Of a DNA stretch of 64,000 bases, positions 4,825 through 49,815 are shown in pieces (position 1 is the stretch's first letter; each line of letters starts with the position of its first letter). The DNA is from Calditrichota bacterium (GTDB taxonomy: Bacteria > Zhuqueibacterota > Zhuqueibacteria > Zhuqueibacterales > Geothermadaptataceae): contig QQUE01000002.1 in the NCBI GenBank assembly GCA_008501765.1, positions 804,336-868,335 on the forward strand, written 5' to 3'. The notes beneath the pieces were generated by a model. That model saw only the letters and a program-made list of their open reading frames with translations. It searched no databases and was not told where the DNA came from. Both the position numbers and the translations under genes were made by a program.

Positions 4825-6138
4825 ATGAAAAACGGAGTTGAGATCAAACCAGCAACTGGTAAACTTGGTATTCTCACACCGGGTATGGGCGCTGTAGCAA
4901 CCACATTTATTGCTGGTTGCCTGGCCGTGCAAAAAGGCATTGGGAAGCCCATTGGCTCCCTGACACAGATGGGTAGTATTCGATTGGGTAAAAGAACCGA
5001 GGACCGAAACCCGCTTATTAAGGATTTTGTGCCTTTGGCCGACTTAAATGATCTGGTTTTTGGGGGTTGGGATATTTTTGAAGACAATGTTTACGAAGCT
5101 GCGCTGAATGCAGGTGTTTTGAGTAAAGATTTGTTAGACGAAATCAAAGCAGATCTTTCCGCAATCAAGCCGATGAAGGCAGTTTTTGATCCAGCGTATG
5201 TGAAAAAACTGGACGGCACCTGGGTTAAAAAGGGCCAGACAAAAATGGATTTGGCAGACCAACTGCGGGAAGATATTCGTAATTTTAAGTCTGAAAATAA
5301 ATTGGATCGAATTGTTATCGTTTGGTGTGGCAGCACGGAAATTTATTTGGAGCCGACAGCGGCGCACAAGTCTTTGCCTGCATTGGAAAAAGCCATGCGT
5401 GAAAATGATCCGGCCATCGCGCCGAGCATGATTTATGCGTACGCCGCCCTTAAAGAAGGCGTTCCCTTTGCCAACGGCGCTCCGAATTTAACAGTTGACT
5501 TTCCCGCGATTCAGGAATTGGCCAAAGAAATGAAAATGCCAATTAGTGGTAAAGATTTTAAAACAGGCCAGACTTTTATGAAAACCTTGCTCGCGCCGGG
5601 TTTTAAAGCCCGTTTGTTGGGACTTTCGGGTTGGTTTTCTACCAATATTCTCGGAAACAGAGACGGTGAAGTACTCGACGATCCGGAGGCTTTTAAAACA
5701 AAAGAAGTCAGCAAGCTGGGTGTTTTAGAATATATTTTGCAACCGAAAGTTTATCCTGATTTGTACAAGGAACTCTACCACAAAGTGCGAATAAATTATT
5801 ATCCACCACGTGGTGACAATAAAGAAGGCTGGGATAATATCGATATTTTTGGCTGGTTGAATTATCCGATGCAGATAAAAGTAGATTTTCTCTGTCGTGA
5901 TAGCATTTTAGCAGCCCCACTGGTGCTTGATCTCGCCTTGTTTTCAGATTTAGCCTTGCGCACCGGAATGCATGGGATCCAGGAATGGCTGTCCTTTTAT
6001 TACAAGAGCCCGATGGTTCCAAGCAATCTCTATCCGGAACATGATATCTTTATTCAGTTGATGAAACTGAAAAACACCCTGCGTCATATGAAAGGTGAGG
6101 ATCTCATTACGCATCTCGGGCTTGAATATTACGATTGA
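4825..6138 (+). CDS. ino1: Inositol-3-phosphate synthase
   Basis: 437 residues, the length of bacterial myo-inositol-1-phosphate synthases. The NAD-binding N-terminus LGILTPGMGAVATTF, the IVIVWCGSTEIY strand and the conserved block KTGQTFMKTLLAPGFKARL followed by GNRDGEVLDDPE mark the family; Lys residues in this block act in catalysis in characterised members. The enzyme converts glucose-6-phosphate to inositol-3-phosphate through an NAD+-dependent oxidation, aldol cyclisation and reduction. Its position after the phosphatidyltransferase suggests the product feeds inositol lipids rather than only osmolytes. A terminator follows the stop. Confidence 0.93.
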   Translation: MKNGVEIKPATGKLGILTPGMGAVATTFIAGCLAVQKGIGKPIGSLTQMGSIRLGKRTEDRNPLIKDFVPLADLNDLVFGGWDIFEDNVYEAALNAGVLSKDLLDEIKADLSAIKPMKAVFDPAYVKKLDGTWVKKGQTKMDLADQLREDIRNFKSENKLDRIVIVWCGSTEIYLEPTAAHKSLPALEKAMRENDPAIAPSMIYAYAALKEGVPFANGAPNLTVDFPAIQELAKEMKMPISGKDFKTGQTFMKTLLAPGFKARLLGLSGWFSTNILGNRDGEVLDDPEAFKTKEVSKLGVLEYILQPKVYPDLYKELYHKVRINYYPPRGDNKEGWDNIDIFGWLNYPMQIKVDFLCRDSILAAPLVLDLALFSDLALRTGMHGIQEWLSFYYKSPMVPSNLYPEHDIFIQLMKLKNTLRHMKGEDLITHLGLEYYD

Positions 6139-6155
6139 TAAATGAAATAAATTCG

Positions 6156-6197
6156 CCCCGGTTTTTGATGCACTTTTATGCAAGCCGGGGTTTATTT
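6156..6197 (+). terminator. Intrinsic terminator after ino1
   Basis: CCCCGG (6156-6161) pairs with CCGGGG (6185-6190), with an inner TGCA-containing stem, followed by TTTATTTTT. Confidence 0.75.
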
Positions 6198-6214
6198 TTA
6201 TATGGCGTAACAGA

Positions 6215-7552
6215 TTGAATCGAAAGTCTCCCTTAAAATCAATCCTGAAAACATCTTTGCCTGCCGTGATCGATTTGTCATCGCAAACGATCATGTGGAC
6301 GATAGAGACTATTTTGATTGGGCAAATCAGTGCAGCCGCGTTTGCCGGCGTTGGAATGGCAATACAGATTCTTGTGGTCTGCATGACCATTTTGCTCACT
6401 TTTATAGTCGGTGCCTCGCTTATTTTAACGCGGCATCTCGGGGCTGGCGATAGGTGGCAAGCCAATCATGTTCTTGGTCAAACTGTAATGATGGGCGTTA
6501 TCCTCAGTTTCGTACTTGGGTTGACGTGGTATTTTGGAGCGCCCTGGTTGTTGGCACTAATCCGCGAAGCAAGCGGCGAGGCGCGCAACGCCGGAGTCAC
6601 TTATTTGCGCACCGTGGCTTATTTCGCCCCGATTATTATTACCAATTTCGTCGCGGTCGGCGTTATTCGCGGCTCCGGTGATACCATACATTCAATGATT
6701 ATCAATCTGACAATCAATTCTATAAATGTTATTTTAGCACCCACTTTGATTTTTGGCTTGTTTGGCGCGCCGCGACTTGAAGTCTTTGGTGCAGCCATCG
6801 CGGTTGGGATTTCCCATTCAGTCGGTTTTTGTATCACAACCTATTTGTTGCGCAGTCGAAAAATGACACTGTTTCTTTCTCTGCGGGAAACGACAACACC
6901 CAACTGGCAGACATTTAAAAAACTTTTCAAGGCTGGATTGCCGACGACGGTGGAGCAATTGGCCTGGTCCGTTGGATTGCTCGTCGTTTCAATGTATGCC
7001 GCCATTCTCGGTGTAACAACACTGGCGGCCCATCAAGTGTTTTTGCGGATTCAGGCCATTCTTTCCATGTTTTATTTTGGCTTTGGCATGGCAGCGATGA
7101 CACTCATGGGCAAAAACCTTGGCGCCGAGGAGAAAAAATTGGCCCAAAAAACAGCCGAAATGACTGGCTGGGTCGTCTATGTTTTTGTGATGATCGTGGT
7201 CGCAGTCACTATTTTCTTTTCCAAGAATATGATCACGGTTTTTACCGATGATCCGCAGGTGGTAAAAATAGGCTCAACCGTGGTTTTGGCTTTTGCCCTT
7301 GTACAAATTCCCAAGGCGGTTAATGGCGTGGTCATCGGCAACTTGCGCGGTGCGGGTGACCTGAAATGGCTCATGTGGACAACGATGGCCGGAGTCATGT
7401 TTTTTGAAATAGGCAGCACCTGGGCATCCGTTTTCATTTTTAATTTGTCCCTCTGGGGATTATGGACGGTCCATATGATTGATGAAACAACCCGTTTGAT
7501 TTTTAATTATTGGCGATTTCGTGGCGGCAAATGGAAATTTATAGATTTATAA
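6215..7552 (+). CDS. MATE-family multidrug/sodium antiporter
   Basis: A 445-residue inner-membrane protein with about twelve hydrophobic helices in two similar halves, typical of MATE exporters. The repeated pattern is visible in GVGMAIQILV...ASLILTRHLGAGD (first half) and LAAHQVFLRIQAIL...MTLMGKNLGAEE (second half), and in the twin segments VGVIRGSGDT and NGVVIGNLRGAGDLK. MATE proteins export cationic drugs or metabolites using Na+ or H+ gradients. The start is TTG with no clear ribosome site; no ATG occurs before the first helix. It begins just after a terminator and is followed 10 bases later by tmk, so it may share a transcript. Substrate cannot be deduced. Confidence 0.87.
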   Translation: MNRKSPLKSILKTSLPAVIDLSSQTIMWTIETILIGQISAAAFAGVGMAIQILVVCMTILLTFIVGASLILTRHLGAGDRWQANHVLGQTVMMGVILSFVLGLTWYFGAPWLLALIREASGEARNAGVTYLRTVAYFAPIIITNFVAVGVIRGSGDTIHSMIINLTINSINVILAPTLIFGLFGAPRLEVFGAAIAVGISHSVGFCITTYLLRSRKMTLFLSLRETTTPNWQTFKKLFKAGLPTTVEQLAWSVGLLVVSMYAAILGVTTLAAHQVFLRIQAILSMFYFGFGMAAMTLMGKNLGAEEKKLAQKTAEMTGWVVYVFVMIVVAVTIFFSKNMITVFTDDPQVVKIGSTVVLAFALVQIPKAVNGVVIGNLRGAGDLKWLMWTTMAGVMFFEIGSTWASVFIFNLSLWGLWTVHMIDETTRLIFNYWRFRGGKWKFIDL

Positions 7553-7562
7553 TGGCATCACA

Positions 7563-8219
7563 ATGAGTGGATTTTTTATAACATTTGAAGGCATTGACGG
7601 GTGTGGAAAAACAACCCAGGCAGAAGCACTCATCGAGCGATTTTCTCAAATTCAGGTTGAGTATTTATATCTCCGCGAGCCGGGAGGAACGTCTATTTCA
7701 GAAAGTGTTCGAGAAATTTTGCTTGATAAGAACAACACAAAAATGTGCGACCGGACCGAAATATTACTGTACGCTGCGGCGCGGGCACAGATAGTAGAAG
7801 AAATTATAAAACCTGGTTTAAATGATGGTAAAATTGTTGTTTGCGATCGATATGCAGATTCGACGGCAGCCTATCAGGGATATGGCCGCCAATTGGATAT
7901 TTCAATCGTGGATGCGGCAATCGAATTGGCAACGGGCGGCTTGCAGCCACATCTCACATTTTTTTTTAATCTAAGTTTGGAAACAGCAACGCGGCGTCGC
8001 ACTGAAAACGGGAAGGGTGAAGATCGCCTGGAAGCTGAAGGCGTCCGTTTCTACCAACGCGTCAGCGATGGGTACCTGCAATTGGCACAGCGTTATCAGC
8101 AACGGTTTGTAACAATCGACGCTGAAAAATCACGAGGAGAACAGCATGAACAGGTATGGGAAATCACCAAAGCACGAGCACTGAAGATGGGCTTGAGTAT
8201 GGAGGCCTTCAATGGGTAG
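7563..8219 (+). CDS. tmk: Thymidylate kinase
   Basis: 218 residues, normal length. The P-loop GIDGCGKTT is at residues 10-18, the REPGGT motif follows, and the DRYADSTAAYQGYGR segment carries the dTMP-binding Asp-Arg pair. The enzyme phosphorylates dTMP to dTDP for DNA synthesis. The lid region after TRRR reads ENGKGEDRLE, as in E. coli-like lids. Its last codons overlap the S41 protease start by 8 bases, so translation is likely coupled. Confidence 0.95.
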   Translation: MSGFFITFEGIDGCGKTTQAEALIERFSQIQVEYLYLREPGGTSISESVREILLDKNNTKMCDRTEILLYAAARAQIVEEIIKPGLNDGKIVVCDRYADSTAAYQGYGRQLDISIVDAAIELATGGLQPHLTFFFNLSLETATRRRTENGKGEDRLEAEGVRFYQRVSDGYLQLAQRYQQRFVTIDAEKSRGEQHEQVWEITKARALKMGLSMEAFNG

Positions 8220-9912
8220 AAAAAAACAGATTTATTTACGTATTGCTATTGCAATAATTGCCGGCTTTGCCTTGACCGGCTGGCTCTCAAGTGAGAAGGG
8301 CAAAGAACAGCTTGATTATCTCGGCAAAGTACATCAAAATATCATCTTTTTTGGTAAAGTTTATAAAGAAGTCGCAAATAAATATATCGATGTAATCGAT
8401 CCCGAAAAATTTATGAATCTTGGGCTCGATGCCATGCTCGCCGCTGTGGATGATTACACGGTTCTGGTCGAAGGCGAAGAAAATGCGCAATTGGAAATAA
8501 TGACAACAGGGCGCTATGGCGGCCTCGGAATGGTCATTGGAATTCGAGAAAAGTGGCCAACAGTGATGGAGCCTCCTTATGACGATACACCGGCATTGCG
8601 CGCCGGTTGCCGCGAGGGAGATCAAATCATTGAAGTTGATGGTATTTCGACAGAAAATATGACCGTCAACGATGTGGCCAAACACATGCGCGGCGAAATT
8701 GGAACAGCCGTCAATATTTCCATTCGCCGGGCAGGCTCTGATCAGCCGATAAATTTTCGCCTGGTGCGAGCGGAAATAGTGGTGAAGGATGTTGTTTTTT
8801 CAGAAGTAATAGCCGATAGTGTGGGCTATATAAAATTATCACGCTTCTCCAAAAATGCGGTACACGAAGTACGTAAGTCAGTTCTCGATTTAAAAAATAA
8901 AGGGATGAAAAATCTGATTCTCGACCTTCGTAACAATCCTGGCGGGCTGCTGGAATCTGCAGTTGGAGTTGCTGATATTTTTCTGGCGAAAGGCCGGTTG
9001 ATCGTATCGACGAAGGGGAGAACTCCGGCAACAATGCAAAAGTATTACAGTGAAAATGATCCGATTTTGGTAAACGAACCGCTCGTTATTCTGGTGAACA
9101 GGTTCAGTGCCTCCGCCTCCGAAATCGTCGCCGGTGCAATTCAGGATTTGGACAGGGGCATAATTTTAGGTCAAACAACTTTTGGTAAAGGGCTGGTTCA
9201 AAGTATAATTCAGTTAAACCGCAATTCACGATTGAAATTAACAACGGCAAAATATTATTTGCCAAGTGGCCGCTTGATCCAGCGTGATCGGCGGACACCA
9301 AAAGAGAAAGAAAAAATTCTATTCTCGGCTGCCGAACGACAATCCCGCAAAGATGATAGTTTGAAAGTATACAGCACAACAATTGGCCGCGAGGTGCATG
9401 GCCGTGGCGGAATCGTTCCGGACATGGTAATTGCGGCTGATTCCTTAACAGGTTATCAACAAAGCCTGTTGCGTCAATCGATGATTTTTAATTATGCCGT
9501 AGATTTTATCAATACCCTTGAACAGGTGAATAAAATCCCTGAGGTGACTGATGCTGTATTGGCCGATTTCGAATTGTTTTTACAGCAAAGAAAGTTTAAA
9601 TATGAGTCTGAAAGTTATAAAAAGTTGACAGAGCTTAAAAATATTCTCAAAGTCGAAGGATACCTGGATAAAACACAGCCGCAGATGGCAAGCCTGGACA
9701 CAGCAATTAACAATCTTTTTGCAGATGAATTCTCGAAAAACAAAGATTTCATTCAGCACCAACTCAATCTTGAATTAGCGGCAAAATATGGTGGAACGCA
9801 GGCAAAAATCAGAATCGGTTTAACCAAGGATGAAGAATTAAAAAAGGCATTGAACCTTTTGCAAAACTTACCGGAGTTTTCATCGATATTGCAACCTGAA
9901 AGTGAAATTTAA
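8212..9912 (+). CDS. S41-family carboxyl-terminal processing protease
   Basis: 566 residues. An N-terminal membrane anchor or signal (residues ~9-25) is followed by a PDZ domain (~95-185, including the GLGMVIGIRE carboxylate-binding strand) and the tail-specific protease core. The catalytic Ser lies in NRFSASASEIVAGA (~300) and the general-base Lys in TTFGKGLVQ (~325). Such CtpA-like enzymes cut unfolded or tagged proteins in the periplasm. The last ~170 residues after the protease core are helical and charged, longer than in minimal CtpA. It overlaps tmk by 8 bases and precedes ppdK by 43 bases. Confidence 0.9.
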   Translation: MGRKKQIYLRIAIAIIAGFALTGWLSSEKGKEQLDYLGKVHQNIIFFGKVYKEVANKYIDVIDPEKFMNLGLDAMLAAVDDYTVLVEGEENAQLEIMTTGRYGGLGMVIGIREKWPTVMEPPYDDTPALRAGCREGDQIIEVDGISTENMTVNDVAKHMRGEIGTAVNISIRRAGSDQPINFRLVRAEIVVKDVVFSEVIADSVGYIKLSRFSKNAVHEVRKSVLDLKNKGMKNLILDLRNNPGGLLESAVGVADIFLAKGRLIVSTKGRTPATMQKYYSENDPILVNEPLVILVNRFSASASEIVAGAIQDLDRGIILGQTTFGKGLVQSIIQLNRNSRLKLTTAKYYLPSGRLIQRDRRTPKEKEKILFSAAERQSRKDDSLKVYSTTIGREVHGRGGIVPDMVIAADSLTGYQQSLLRQSMIFNYAVDFINTLEQVNKIPEVTDAVLADFELFLQQRKFKYESESYKKLTELKNILKVEGYLDKTQPQMASLDTAINNLFADEFSKNKDFIQHQLNLELAAKYGGTQAKIRIGLTKDEELKKALNLLQNLPEFSSILQPESEI

Positions 9913-44263: not shown

Positions 44264-45946
44264 ATGGAACATACCCCTACTTTTTTCAGTTATGCCCGTT
44301 CTGATTCAGAATTTGTCCTGCAGTTGGCGAAAGATCTGCGAAAAGCTGGTGCCGATGTGTGGCTGGATCAACTCGATATCAAACCGGGAAGCCGCTGGGA
44401 TCTCTCGATTGAACATGCATTGAAGGCTTCCGGGCGAATGATCGTAATAATCTCACCGGATTCGATCTCCTCCAACAATGTCATGGACGAAGTTTCCTTT
44501 GCGCTCGAAGAGGGGAAGGAAGTCGTCCCTGTTTTATTTAAACCCGCTGATATTCCATTTCGGCTGCGCAGGTTGCAACATGTCGATTTTACAGCTAATT
44601 ACAACGAAGCCCTGCACAATTTATTTTCCGCTTTAAATCTGGGAACTGGCGGGGTGCCGGCAGAAATTGGAAAATCACCCGAAAACGAAATCGAAAGCCA
44701 CCGGCCGGAAAAAGTCAGTAAACAAAAGGCTGCTTCCCCTGCTTCGATTAAGCAGGAAAAACCGGGGAGTGATCCGGATAAAGCGACCGCAACAACAACT
44801 CCGAAAAAATCTGGATACAAATTAGCAGTTATTTTTGTCGGGATAATCGCTGTATCGTCTTTTGTCCTGTGGAGCCAGTATAACAAGAATGACGGGAGCG
44901 TTGTTCAGGGGGATATCGAGTCGGACACACGCGCGTTGCCACTTGAAAACCAGCATGAGTGGGAATCAGCTTTATCCTCAAATACTGTCGCTGCCTATCA
45001 AAATTACCTGAAAAAATATCCCAATGGCACGCATGTGGGCGATGCCTGGAAAAAAATCGATGCTTTGAATAATCAGCGTCAAATAATTGGTGCGGACAAT
45101 AAAGAGTGGAAAAACGCGACTGCTGTGAATACTATTGCGAGTTTTAAACAATATTTAAAGCTCTTTCCAACCGGGGAGAACCACGAACAAGCCCACAAAA
45201 GGATCGATTATTTAGAAAAGCAGTTGCAACTGGCTGAAGAAGAGAATGCCCGCTGGAATGAAGCGCAAAGAAAAAATACCATTCAAGGTTACAAAGAATA
45301 TTTAAGCAAATATAGGCTTGGCAGATATTCCAGCGACGCTGTGAGCAGAATTAACGAGTTGACTAACAAATCCAACTCTGAACAACAAAAGCAAATTGCC
45401 GCAGATTTTGATGCAAAATTTGCAGGAAATTGGTTTAATACAGCAGGGACCTGGCTCTATGGAATTTCCAGGGATTCGCGCGGAAAATATATACGAACCG
45501 GCAATGTGTTGTATTACTATGCGCCGGACGATGTGGCTGAATTGAGTGCCGGGTTTTACAAGGTGGCGGCAAAATCAACGAATAATGCCCGGCGGAATTT
45601 TCATCTCAAACAGGGCGCAGATAAAAACAGCATGTCCATTTCCGGTTCGGCAACTTCGGGTTTTAATTCCTATTGGCGGGTTGTTGGCCGATCCGTGCGG
45701 CGCGTCACATTTAGCGACGGCTCTTTTGCTCATGCCGGTGGGAAAAGATGGATCGAGAAAGATGCTGCCGGCACTGTTAAATATACATTTAACGAGACTG
45801 GCCGCGATGACTGGTCGGTCTATCTGCAAGATACCGCTGGCAGGGGATTGCTGCAAATCGATATCCATCGAAAAACGATATGTTGGACACCGACCACGGG
45901 CAAAAAAATAGACCTGTACCGAATGACTGGCTGGTATAATAATTAG
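44264..45946 (+). CDS. Membrane-anchored TIR protein with tandem repeats
   Basis: 560 residues. An N-terminal TIR domain (~5-120) starts FFSYARSDSEFV; Glu76 in NVMDEVSFALEEG lies where TIR NADases have the catalytic Glu. A Pro/Lys-rich linker leads to one membrane helix (~184-204). Three repeats of ~38 residues follow (~232, ~281, ~331) with the pattern W-x2-A-x3-NT...YL...P-G...A...I, as in repeats attached to bacterial caspase and kinase proteins. A ~170-residue C-terminal domain, rich in aromatics, follows. The TIR should be cytoplasmic and the repeats outside. TIR proteins act in immunity by depleting NAD+ or making signal nucleotides, but a receptor role is also possible. Confidence 0.8.
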   Translation: MEHTPTFFSYARSDSEFVLQLAKDLRKAGADVWLDQLDIKPGSRWDLSIEHALKASGRMIVIISPDSISSNNVMDEVSFALEEGKEVVPVLFKPADIPFRLRRLQHVDFTANYNEALHNLFSALNLGTGGVPAEIGKSPENEIESHRPEKVSKQKAASPASIKQEKPGSDPDKATATTTPKKSGYKLAVIFVGIIAVSSFVLWSQYNKNDGSVVQGDIESDTRALPLENQHEWESALSSNTVAAYQNYLKKYPNGTHVGDAWKKIDALNNQRQIIGADNKEWKNATAVNTIASFKQYLKLFPTGENHEQAHKRIDYLEKQLQLAEEENARWNEAQRKNTIQGYKEYLSKYRLGRYSSDAVSRINELTNKSNSEQQKQIAADFDAKFAGNWFNTAGTWLYGISRDSRGKYIRTGNVLYYYAPDDVAELSAGFYKVAAKSTNNARRNFHLKQGADKNSMSISGSATSGFNSYWRVVGRSVRRVTFSDGSFAHAGGKRWIEKDAAGTVKYTFNETGRDDWSVYLQDTAGRGLLQIDIHRKTICWTPTTGKKIDLYRMTGWYNN

Positions 45947-46063
45947 CTTCGATTGTTATTTTGGGTGTTTTTAGCGGGTCTCAGGGGAAATCGATTTATC
46001 GTACATGGCCTGAATTTAGCGACCGGTGTGACCGCTACGGTGATTTGTTGGGCAAATAATTTA

Positions 46064-46069
46064 TGAGGA
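46064..46069 (+). promoter_or_regulatory. Ribosome binding site fixing a TTG start
   Basis: GAGGAG, six bases before TTG 46076. The overlapping ATG at 46063 is out of frame, so the TTG start is preferred. Confidence 0.55.
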
Positions 46070-46075
46070 GCGACA

Positions 46076-47119
46076 TTGGAGTTCAATACAGTTCTTTTAA
46101 TTGCAGGACTCGCCATACTTCTGTTAGGATTGATTGGGCGAATAAAAGTCAAAGACATTGAACTTGGCGCCGAGAGTCTTTCCATTAGACTAATTGTTGG
46201 ACTGTTGGGGCTTGCTTTTGTTTCAGCGGCACTTGTAAATGCCAAATACGATATATTTGCAAAACCAGAATCTAAGGTGGCCAAATTAAAGAATGAACTC
46301 AAAGTCATAAACCAAAAAAACGATAGTCTAACTCTTCAAATCGATAGCCTCCAACAGGTTATACTAAAATTCGAGAAGCAATTGGTTGCTAACAAGGACG
46401 GCATCATTAGTGATCCAGACAATCTCGGACAAGTATTAAAACTTAGGACGGAAGAAATCGATTCGTTAGCCAACGAAATTCTAAGGGTTCAACAAAAAAA
46501 CAAAGAACTTGAGAAAAGAGTAGGCAATCTTCAAAGAAAAAATATCCGCTTAAAGTCGCTCGACAAGAGTGCTCTGCAACCACAAATTGACTCGTCGTTT
46601 TCAGATAGAAGCGTTGAGAGAACCCTGAGCTTTGAGGCTGACAAAGAAATCAAAATCTTAATTACTGATACCGGTACCCTTCTAAACGGTATTCGGTTTT
46701 TTCATATAAATGGGAGTAGAAGATGGCCGGATAAATACCAATATGGTAAAAATTCCCTCAAAGAATTCACAATTAATGTATCAGGAACCAGCGTGGATAT
46801 TGATCCATTGGATATTACCGGTATAAATATCATATCCATTGTTATAAAAAAAGGAGAGTTTTATAGTGGGAAAAATATGCCGGAAGGAGTTGTTCTTAAA
46901 GTAAGAACATCCCGAAATGTATACATAGGAAAAGTTCCGATTCATTCTCTTTATCTTTATATACTTTTGCCCACATCATTCGATGTTTCAAAATTAGACC
47001 AGTACTTTAAGCCCGGAATCGGTTATGATACATACGACATAAAGTATAAGGAGATTACAGGATTTCCTGTTTTAAGAATTCCTCTTAATCGTCTAGAAAG
47101 TGTTGAGTTTAGTCAATAA
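46076..47119 (+). CDS. Membrane coiled-coil protein of unknown family
   Basis: 347 residues. Two hydrophobic helices at the N-terminus (~5-22 and ~38-58) form a hairpin anchor. A long coiled coil (~66-165) follows, with heptad-like KLKNELKVINQKNDSL and LRVQQKNKELEKRV. The C-terminal ~170 residues are rich in beta strands (RSVERTLSFEADKEIKILI, NIISIVIKKGEFYSG) and match no family I know. It starts at TTG. It lies 130 bases after the membrane TIR gene and may be its partner: both would be anchored in the inner membrane. It is also relatively AT-rich. Function unknown. Confidence 0.6.
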   Translation: MEFNTVLLIAGLAILLLGLIGRIKVKDIELGAESLSIRLIVGLLGLAFVSAALVNAKYDIFAKPESKVAKLKNELKVINQKNDSLTLQIDSLQQVILKFEKQLVANKDGIISDPDNLGQVLKLRTEEIDSLANEILRVQQKNKELEKRVGNLQRKNIRLKSLDKSALQPQIDSSFSDRSVERTLSFEADKEIKILITDTGTLLNGIRFFHINGSRRWPDKYQYGKNSLKEFTINVSGTSVDIDPLDITGINIISIVIKKGEFYSGKNMPEGVVLKVRTSRNVYIGKVPIHSLYLYILLPTSFDVSKLDQYFKPGIGYDTYDIKYKEITGFPVLRIPLNRLESVEFSQ

Positions 47120-47148
47120 ATATTTAGTAGAATCCCAAAATAAACAGG

Positions 47149-47283
47149 TGCATCAGCCTAACTTTTCGTGCTCCTGACTCGGTTTTACTATGGTTCGTAG
47201 AAGTGGCGAAAAATCGTGGTATTGCTGAAGTGTATGGAGGATATCCGCTCGGCAGGAGACGACGGCGTTCGGTGGCTGATGGC
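47149..47283 (-). repeat. attC-like imperfect palindrome, degenerate
   Basis: Imperfect palindrome of ~135 bases just after the VOC gene on the - strand. Edges TGCATCAGCC and GGCTGATGGCA match; inside, CGTGCTCCTG mirrors CAGGAGACG with a bulge. On the - strand it ends in GTTAGGC (47162 to 47156), a perfect GTTRRRY core; the partner RYYYAAC arm is interrupted. It shares ATCAGCC and CTAAC with the palindrome at 48559. Confidence 0.45.
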
Positions 47284-47295
47284 AGCAGGCACGAA

Positions 47296-47649
47296 TCATT
47301 TGTCTGACCAAACTGCCAACTCGTGTCCCGAAGGATCGCGGAAATGAAAACGCCTGCCACCCGGGAAATCATAGGTTTCTTTAATTACTTTTCCACCATT
47401 AGCAGTAATGGCTTCCTCAATGCCCGCGAGGTCAAGCGCATAAAGAACAACGAGCGGCCCGCCGGTTTTGACTGTTCCGGCCTTGGCAAAACCACCGTTT
47501 AGTCTACCGTCGGTAAAACTTGTGTATTCCTGACCCCAGTCCTGAAACACCCAACCGAACACTTTTGAGTAAAAGTTTTTTGCGGCATTGATGTCCAGTA
47601 CTGGAAACTCTATGTAGTCTATTCTTCGGTCTTGTTCTTTCTGTGTCAT
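47296..47649 (-). CDS. VOC-family protein (glyoxalase/bleomycin-resistance fold), single domain
   Basis: 117 residues. RIDYIEFPVLDINAAKNFY and the C-terminal FRDPSGHELAVWS are family signatures; the first His position is Glu (YIEFPV) and Glu105 lies in GHELAV. VOC proteins bind metal ions in a paired beta-alpha-beta3 fold and act as glyoxalases, dioxygenases or drug-binding proteins; which one cannot be told here. AAGGAA precedes the ATG. It is 80 bases downstream of the second VOC gene on the same strand and is followed by an attC-like palindrome, so it may be cassette cargo. Confidence 0.8.
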   Translation of the reverse strand: MTQKEQDRRIDYIEFPVLDINAAKNFYSKVFGWVFQDWGQEYTSFTDGRLNGGFAKAGTVKTGGPLVVLYALDLAGIEEAITANGGKVIKETYDFPGGRRFHFRDPSGHELAVWSDK

Positions 47650-47728
47650 GGAATTCCTTCCAATATTTTGAGAATTATGTGATTTTTATTCAGTCAGCCT
47701 GAACGGGCCCTGTTTAGGCCGCTGCACC

Positions 47729-48493
47729 TCACTGCCACGCCTGCAAGGCAATACATACGCCGACTGGGTCTTGAACGATGGCGTACTTTGCCTCAGACAT
47801 TTCTTTTAGGATTTCACCACCGTTCGACCGGACACGTCGAAGGCTTTCCTCAAAGTCATCGACAGGCAGGCTGAGCAGCCAGACGTGTGGGATGCCCGCA
47901 TAATCGGCGCTCGCGTGGCAAATCTCGGCTGCCGAGTCCCCATTGCTCATCTGCATCTCGTAGCCAGTGTGCTGCCCTTCTCCATCCTCGACCACAACGG
48001 GCTTCGCCGACCAGCCGACAACGACTTTGTAGAAATCCTGACTGGCAACAGTGTCGGAAGCAATCAACGATAGCCACGTTATACAACCGGCGCGTTGGAT
48101 CTTGTCTATGGCCGATTCCGAAGGAACGACAGGTATGAGACCGAACGCAGCCCCACCCTGGTCCGTGAGAACAGCCCATTGACTCTGCCCGTCATCGTCC
48201 TTGCCGTGCATTAGCTCTTTTCCGCCGAGTTCGAGCGTCCGCGCAACACTGGTCGCAATATCAGCGACCTGGAAATGTGGCATCCATTGTAGCGGAAGCG
48301 CTTCGTATTCCGGTAAACGCACCCCCAAGCCAATGATTGGTGTACCGGTGTTGTTGGTCAGGTCTTCACGCCAAAGAGGGTCGATTCCCGTCGTCAGAAT
48401 CTGCGAATAGAAGGCGACCTCTTTCTTGTGGTCTGGTACGGCGATGTCAGCGCTGAGGACTCCGCCGACGCGGTGGGCAAATGGTTTTCGCAT
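47729..48493 (-). CDS. Two-domain VOC-family protein
   Basis: 254 residues, two VOC modules in tandem. The first runs from VLSADIAVPDHKKEVAFYSQIL to GAAFGLIPV, the second from ITWLSLIASDTVASQDFYKVVVGW to AIVQDPVGVCIALQAW. Tandem VOC enzymes are often glyoxalase-like or extradiol dioxygenase-like, or small-molecule binding proteins; the metal-ligand pattern here is incomplete, so binding rather than catalysis is possible. The start is ATG 48493 with AAGGAG five bases before it, rather than the TTG at 48496. Base use looks more GC-rich than its neighbours, which fits transfer. It is probably a cassette gene. Confidence 0.82.
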   Translation of the reverse strand: MRKPFAHRVGGVLSADIAVPDHKKEVAFYSQILTTGIDPLWREDLTNNTGTPIIGLGVRLPEYEALPLQWMPHFQVADIATSVARTLELGGKELMHGKDDDGQSQWAVLTDQGGAAFGLIPVVPSESAIDKIQRAGCITWLSLIASDTVASQDFYKVVVGWSAKPVVVEDGEGQHTGYEMQMSNGDSAAEICHASADYAGIPHVWLLSLPVDDFEESLRRVRSNGGEILKEMSEAKYAIVQDPVGVCIALQAWQ

Positions 48494-48558
48494 CAATTCT
48501 CCTTATATTTTGAGTCAACCGGCAATTTAGGTCAGCAATTAACAAGCGCGACCCATCT

Positions 48559-48688
48559 GGTCTAACAACAGCATCAGCCGTTGAAACCGCTGTGGGATGA
48601 ACCGTTAGAATTGAAGTTAAATTTGAATCAACTCAAGAGCGCTTTAAAACAACGGCGGTTTCAATCGGCTGAATGCAGTGTTAGAACC
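48559..48688 (-). repeat. Candidate integron attC site
   Basis: A 130-base imperfect palindrome with ~38-base arms. The left arm begins GGTCTAAC, the right ends GTTAGAACC. The arms share AGCCG, TTGAAACCGC and ACAGCAT blocks, differing by a few bulged bases, as in attC folding. On the - strand the R' core is GTTAGAC (48566 to 48560), a perfect GTTRRRY, and R'' is TTCTAAC (first base deviates). It starts 30 bases after the hydrolase stop and ends 66 bases before the two-domain VOC start, the position expected of a cassette boundary. Confidence 0.6.
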
Positions 48689-48717
48689 AAAAGACCATGT
48701 AATCCCAATCACGATTT

Positions 48718-49608
48718 CTATTTTTCAAGAGTGATTGCTTCAATCCAATTTATTATAGTCCGCACCAACCCAGCTCTGGATTGGGTGAACGCATGATTGT
48801 CCTGAAATGTAACTATTTTGACATTTTGTGCTTGATACTTTTTCAGGGTGCGATACAAGGGCAAAATGTGATGATCCATTGTCACCATTACATCATCCCA
48901 AGCGCCAACCAGCAAAATATTTTTTTGTGCAAGTAGTGGGGCGCTTTTTCTCAAATCAATGGTGGAGTCTCCATCTGCAATCATTTGCTCAGTAACATCT
49001 TTCGGCATTTCTCCTTTTGGAAATCGAACGGGTCCAGACGGAGCTGCGAGTTGTTCAAACATAGTGTCAATCATTTGTTTGAATCCGGGGTTGCGCCTGT
49101 ACTCTCTAAAAAATTCGCCATGATCAGTTCCTGCGATAGAAAAAACATCAGAGATTTCTGGATGATTGGCAGTATAGGTCAGTGCCATCCCACCGCCATA
49201 ACTCCATCCACCTAAATAGATACGAGTTGTGTCCACTTTGTATTTGCTGATATTCTCGGGCTGGTGAACAAATTGAAATGCTGCCTGGATATCCTTTTGA
49301 GTATTTTCAAAATTATTTTGACCCTGACTTTTGTAAGTACCACTGTAGTTAAATGTCACGACATTAATGCCTGCCTCCGAGAGTTTGGCTCCAAGGCCAA
49401 GAACATCTATTTCATTTCCAGGCAAGCCGTGTAGCAATATTACGGTAGGAAACTTTCCTTCTCCTTCTGAAATATATAACTTACCCTTAAGAAGCACGCC
49501 GCCACGAGTTATGGTAATAGCTGCAGGAGCTGATGTCTGGCTGTGGGCCACAACGGCAAATGTCCAAAATAGCAGAATCGTATTGAACATTCTCGAAATT
49601 TGTCTCAT
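48718..49608 (-). CDS. Exported alpha/beta hydrolase
   Basis: About 296 residues. A signal peptide (cleaved near AHSQ) precedes an alpha/beta hydrolase: oxyanion segment LLHGLPGN, nucleophile Ser in GGWSYGGGMAL, acid Asp in VGAWDDVM and His in QDNHAFTQ form a complete triad. Such enzymes cut esters or peptides; the substrate is unknown. I place the start at ATG 49608, with AAGGAG eight bases ahead; an upstream ATG at 49641 lacks a ribosome site and would spoil the signal peptide. GTTAGAA (- strand, 49661 to 49655) lies just before the gene and a candidate attC follows it, so it may be a mobile cassette. Confidence 0.85.
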   Translation of the reverse strand: MRQISRMFNTILLFWTFAVVAHSQTSAPAAITITRGGVLLKGKLYISEGEGKFPTVILLHGLPGNEIDVLGLGAKLSEAGINVVTFNYSGTYKSQGQNNFENTQKDIQAAFQFVHQPENISKYKVDTTRIYLGGWSYGGGMALTYTANHPEISDVFSIAGTDHGEFFREYRRNPGFKQMIDTMFEQLAAPSGPVRFPKGEMPKDVTEQMIADGDSTIDLRKSAPLLAQKNILLVGAWDDVMVTMDHHILPLYRTLKKYQAQNVKIVTFQDNHAFTQSRAGLVRTIINWIEAITLEK

Positions 49609-49815
49609 TAGGTTATCTCCTTTTATTGACGAGATGCTCACTATTTTTCGGTAGTTCTAACACACCATTATCATTTTATTCTATGAAAATTAACTATTTA
49701 ATGCAATTGAAATTCAACCAAAACGGGTTGTTACACAAGCGTGTAAACACCCAGGTACCATGTTTCAAGAGAGACTAATTTTTACTACGCTCAGTTCCTG
49801 ACAGAAACTTCCTAT

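Follow-up and report, generated by a model that had tools for sequence, protein, structure and literature searches.

A hydrolase gene cassette with its attC site, and a probable second cassette, apart from the integron of a Calditrichota bacterium

Is a group of genes lying between housekeeping genes of a Calditrichota bacterium a cluster of integron cassettes without an integrase, and how could it have come there? The window, i.e. the whole stretch of 64,000 nucleotides analyzed here, had been described in a first-pass annotation as holding an integrase-free array, in which genes for two VOC proteins and one hydrolase alternate with two attC-like palindromes. The three genes are indeed present on the minus strand, namely VOC2, VOC1 and the hydrolase reading frame 48718-49641 (Table 1). 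The draft genome comprises 21 contigs, and the integron and the window are on different ones. For comparison, 82 genomes of the phylum were used.

The attC site of the hydrolase cassette

A covariance model was trained on 18 attC sites, of which 17 came from intI-bearing relatives and the remaining one from the genome's integron; the window site was excluded. The arms covary strongly: both sides change in 16 of 21 pairs, and the covariation score is 0.60 versus 0.19 in shuffles. The first model (R1) had two-base loops and was dropped, since such short loops cannot span long sites like the 127-nt site of the window. It was rebuilt as model R2 with random loops of 55 bases. In two whole-genome searches, 150 candidates each, out of 881 and 1386, received a score, and the window site was not among the hits; absence in these searches is thus not evidence of absence, and 1.264 Mb of contig C8, which carries the window, were scanned directly. 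The only matches at E<=10 in these 1.264 Mb are 48560-48686 and 47156-47273.

The covariance-model search proposed in the first-pass annotation gave 37.7 bits for the held-out site 48560-48686 on the minus strand, with an E-value of 3.5e-7 in the 64-kb window that is rough, because the model derives from 18 sites with artificial loops. The plus strand reached 28.1 bits, so the gene-sense strand is preferred. The palindrome 48559-48688, called attC-like before, folds with a z of about -6 against dinucleotide shuffles (0 of 200 as good). Among the R''/R' arm matches of the 64 kb it also ranks first, with a score of 23; six shuffles of the whole window did not exceed 16.

Read on the minus strand, the site starts with R'' TTCTAAC (48686-48680), followed by a spacer of 8, L'' CAGCCG, an extrahelical A, 8 paired bases and the central loop. 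Behind the loop follow 8 paired bases, L' CGGCTG, a spacer of 8 and R' GTTAGAC (48566-48560). R' fits GTTRRRY perfectly, as had been pointed out, and R'' deviates from RYYYAAC in its first base only. In the gene-sense strand, the extrahelical base is found on the L'' side (CAGCCG-A / CGGCTG), where automatic parsing also places it for 17 of the 18 model sites. The box layout is that of the attC sites of relatives. Cleavage would be expected between G48566 and T48565.

An intergenic position and a palindromic shape would also suit a terminator or a hairpin of another repeat family. This origin is highly improbable: an Rfam scan of the window returned no match, and the boxes, the extrahelical base and the polarity all fit an attC, with an exact cassette end present at 49661. 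Further copies in the genome, for which the earlier annotation suggested looking, were not found in a DNA search with this palindrome; it matched only itself. Judged by its sequence anatomy, 48560-48686 is a textbook, genuine integron attC, and mobility of the cassette is predicted.

In a gene cassette, R'' of the attC has its complement in the first gene-side bases (TTRRRY) of the same cassette. The motif GTTAGAA, noted before just upstream of the hydrolase, is located at 49661-49655 on the minus strand and is the exact complement of R'' TTCTAAC; compared with TTRRRY, the last base of TTAGAA is A, not Y. The insertion junction expected near 49661 reads GGTGTG|TT. From sequence reading, the gene starts with the ATG at 49608 after AAGGAG, while the listed reading frame begins at 49641.

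Among the 82 phylum genomes the hydrolase has one close homologue (G024, 65%), outside its own family, whose other members, those of the own genus included, lack the gene. In G024, G|TTAGAA precedes the start by 51 nt, compared with 52 nt in the window. An attC-like element before the G024 gene scored 9.4 bits only and is not claimed as attC. A search of a genome-contig collection found no relative of the hydrolase, and plasmids gave remote matches only, with 27-33% identity. Because of the genuine attC and the exact cassette ends, the hydrolase is considered a mobile gene cassette away from its integron, the mobility being predicted.

Table 1. Features in the window and stray cassettes elsewhere in the genome
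Feature	Location	Strand	Characteristics
attC of hydrolase cassette	48560..48686	-	covariance model R2, box layout, fold
Complete hydrolase gene cassette, 1095 nt	48566..49660	-	5' junction G49661|TTAGAA, 3' end G48566
Secreted-type alpha/beta hydrolase gene	48718..49608	-	Pfam Abhydrolase_1 2e-11
VOC1, two-domain glyoxalase-like gene	47729..48496	-	Pfam Glyoxalase_6 and Glyoxalase
VOC2, single-domain glyoxalase-like gene	47296..47649	-	Pfam Glyoxalase 9e-10
Degenerate attC, probable, opposite orientation	47156..47273	+	covariance model R2 14.9 bits
Probable cassette with + gene 46076-47119	46048..47267	+	5' junction G46047|TTGGGC
C11 cassette pair	L124 (G000:C11:143000-157000) 6230-8243		
C5 stray cassette, exact ends	L110 (G000:C5) 6664-7560	-	273-aa 2-oxoacid dehydrogenase acyltransferase-like gene
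C10 probable two-gene stray cassette	L125 (G000:C10) 5121-7095	+	closed by 33.6-bit attC

The VOC genes and the weak second site

VOC1 adjoins the hydrolase attC, with the 5' junction G48566|TTAGAC 72 nt before its ATG; VOC2 has no cassette-type 5' junction. One close homologue of VOC1 was found among the 82 genomes (G019, 65%), again outside the own family, and the rest of the own genus and family lacks the gene. The G019 homologue has G|TTAGGC 70 nt before its start. This junction is preceded by a 188-bp repeat, of which a 94% identical copy lies directly before an attC-bearing methyltransferase cassette. VOC1 therefore looks like a cassette gene with a lost attC: the junction recurs in G019, and the repeat precedes an attC-bearing cassette. 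The repeat copies are situated at 6804-6989 and 10145-10332 of L123 (G019:C9), each directly before the G|TTAG junction of a different cassette. Possibly an attI-like or promoter segment was duplicated here; the copies do not match the flanks of two IntI loci of G019.

Model R2 found no attC in the window behind VOC1 or VOC2 in their own minus orientation. The strict alternation of genes and palindromes is consequently not observed, as no attC separates the two VOC genes. Between them, at 47697-47719, there is a near-perfect 23-nt palindrome, GCCTGAACGGGCCCTGTTTAGGC, with the appearance of a collapsed R''/R' pair and no attC score.

The other palindrome, 47149-47283, had been taken as attC-like on the minus strand, ending in GTTAGGC. 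Its attC-like character is weakly supported: R2 matches 47156-47273 with 14.9 bits (E 0.27 per 64 kb), but the palindrome is not significant in folds against shuffles (z -0.75 on the minus and -1.05 on the plus strand). The match is restricted to the plus strand, opposite to the proposed orientation, so the site would close the plus-strand gene 46076-47119, not VOC2. The motif ATCAGCC common to both palindromes adds nothing. On the plus strand, the boxes are R'' GCCTAAC, L'' CTCCTG, an extrahelical A, L' CAGGAG and R' GTTCGGT. The coiled-coil-like gene ends 37 nt before the site, and 29 nt before its start lies G46047|TTGGGC, which differs in a single base from an exact complement of R'' GCCTAAC. 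No homologue of this gene was detected at E<=1e-5 among the 82 phylum genomes. The two attC matches face each other at a distance of 1.3 kb, and the chance of two matches being so close is about 0.2%. The weak site is probably a second attC closing gene 46076-47119. The expected sequence without 46048-47267 reads GTGATTTG|TTCGGTGG.

The integron integrase and cassettes at other loci

The locus was called integrase-free, which is correct locally: TIGR02249 detected no intI fragment within the window. It does not apply to the genome. The search for intI on the chromosome yielded matches on C16, C12, C14 and at C8:905826, the last about 37 kb beyond the window end. The only full intI, at C16:2424-3515, encodes a complete IntI (448 bits versus a cutoff of 265), and no intI is near the window locus. 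On C16, IntI is followed on the same strand by a gene of 265 amino acids, an attC (48.7 bits) and a methyltransferase gene.

Lone attC sites were also detected on C5, C10 and C11 (33.6-35.7 bits). Exact R''-complementary 5' ends precede the genes on C5 (GTTATAT, 8 nt), C11 (GTTAGAA, 11 nt) and C16 (GTTAGGT, 51 nt), with a chance of an exact match within 60 nt of 0.0005-0.003 per case. One mismatch occurs at C10, as for the plus-strand gene of the window. An attC-like inverted repeat with R boxes at G000:C3:473490-473580 (25.7 bits) lacks the extrahelical base and was not counted.

On C11, a moxR/bat-like operon is interrupted by two cassettes; in five relatives, the genes on either side of them are direct neighbours, separated by tens of bases. 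By its ends and the empty site, C11 represents a clean case of cassette insertion outside the integron in this genome. The second C11 cassette carries a 139-aa gene; in its attC-like site, near 8117-8243, R'' TTCTAAC corresponds to the 5' end and R' is damaged. On C5, a RibD_C-type gene starts about 35 nt past the cassette R' and has no recognized attC of its own, as VOC1. The C10 cassette genes encode an HTH regulator and a D12-class adenine methyltransferase.

In this lineage, cassettes also occur outside the integron. Genes closed by an attC are present at no fewer than four such loci, a lower bound because the whole-genome searches scored part of the candidates. Exact cassette ends occur at three outside loci (C5, C11 and the window hydrolase), one of them with an empty site in five relatives.

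Origin of the locus and known systems

The place of the window locus is variable, since relatives carry other genes between the conserved flanking genes. A relative of the same genus differs downstream of a conserved gene, where other genera have PEPCK. An attG-type empty target is clean at C11; for the window locus, the relatives with conserved flanking genes did not yield an exact empty site. The same variable spot includes a TIR-domain gene (44264-45946, plus strand), which resembles anti-phage TIR proteins (PADLOC; weak Thoeris matches).

Of the two attC of the locus, one is certain and the other weak; intI is missing from the window and present on C16. The locus is probably a small cassette cluster (CALIN) that arose from insertion by IntI outside attI, of the attG type, the second attC, the role of IntI and the activity of the sites being presumed. 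It is a SALIN if the weak site remains uncounted. The idea of an attC cluster without integrase stands for the hydrolase and probably for the locus, without extending to VOC genes separated by attC sites. In the proposed mechanism, the bottom strand of 48560-48686 would fold into a hairpin with extrahelical bases, which an integron integrase would recognize and cut at G|TT of R'. The hydrolase cassette and then the VOC1 segment would have been inserted in minus orientation between the housekeeping genes, with a second cassette carrying gene 46076-47119 probably inserted alongside in plus orientation. The integrase would most likely be the resident C16 IntI or its ancestor, acting on a non-attI (attG-type) G|TT.

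It is possible, though doubtful, that the hydrolase is the sole cassette (SALIN), the weak plus-strand site and the VOC genes being chromosomal sequence with no relation to it. The weak score and fold of 47156-47273 and the missing attC behind VOC1 and VOC2 are in agreement with this. Against it, no other sequence in 1.264 Mb reaches E<=10 than these two attC matches, which lie 1.3 kb apart; the boxes of the weak site are arranged as in an attC, with the extrahelical A, and its gene and G|TTGGGC are well placed; and the 5' junction of VOC1 is shared with the G019 homologue. CALINs have been proposed as degraded integrons (PMC9024848), and the locus could accordingly be the relic of a complete integron after deletion of intI and most cassettes. 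Such a relic is unlikely: the window has no intI fragment, the other stray cassettes are on separate contigs, and on C11 the cassettes interrupt an operon found undivided in relatives. Moreover, the attC sites are opposed, whereas cassettes of one array share their orientation. With insertion of cassettes outside attI, the preferred explanation, off-target insertion would be recorded naturally in this genome. The cargo, a secreted hydrolase and proteins of the glyoxalase type, is usual for environmental cassettes. As a reasonable though tentative extension, the resident integrase may routinely scatter cassettes to non-attI chromosomal sites in either orientation, including opposed pairs and operon splits. 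If so, natural attG use would be readable from exact cassette ends together with the empty sites of relatives.

Stray integron cassettes are already known. Clusters of attC sites and single attC sites lacking an integrase are established as CALIN and SALIN, which are classes of IntegronFinder (PMC9024848, PMC12690207). The window resembles them in having attC cassettes without adjacent intI while the genome has intI elsewhere, and differs in that its attC sites are convergent instead of in one orientation and that the second is degenerate. CALINs apart from intI occur in Xanthomonas, with attG insertion cited (PMC12444791, PMC12901181). The attG insertion of cassettes itself has been tracked in experiments with E. 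coli (Loot et al. 2024 Nat Microbiol, cited in PMC12901181 and PMC12444791). In comparison, the insertions in the present genome are natural and old, belong to an uncultured lineage and have a presumed integrase action; the likeness consists in cassettes that end at G|TT within normal chromosomal sequence, at several loci and once inside an operon. In the sedentary chromosomal integron on C16 (C16:1-3515), in contrast to the window locus, intI adjoins and the cassettes are located downstream of it on the same strand. Both have cassette genes, on C16 after IntI, and share the attC box layout with the extrahelical A (48.7 bits on C16).
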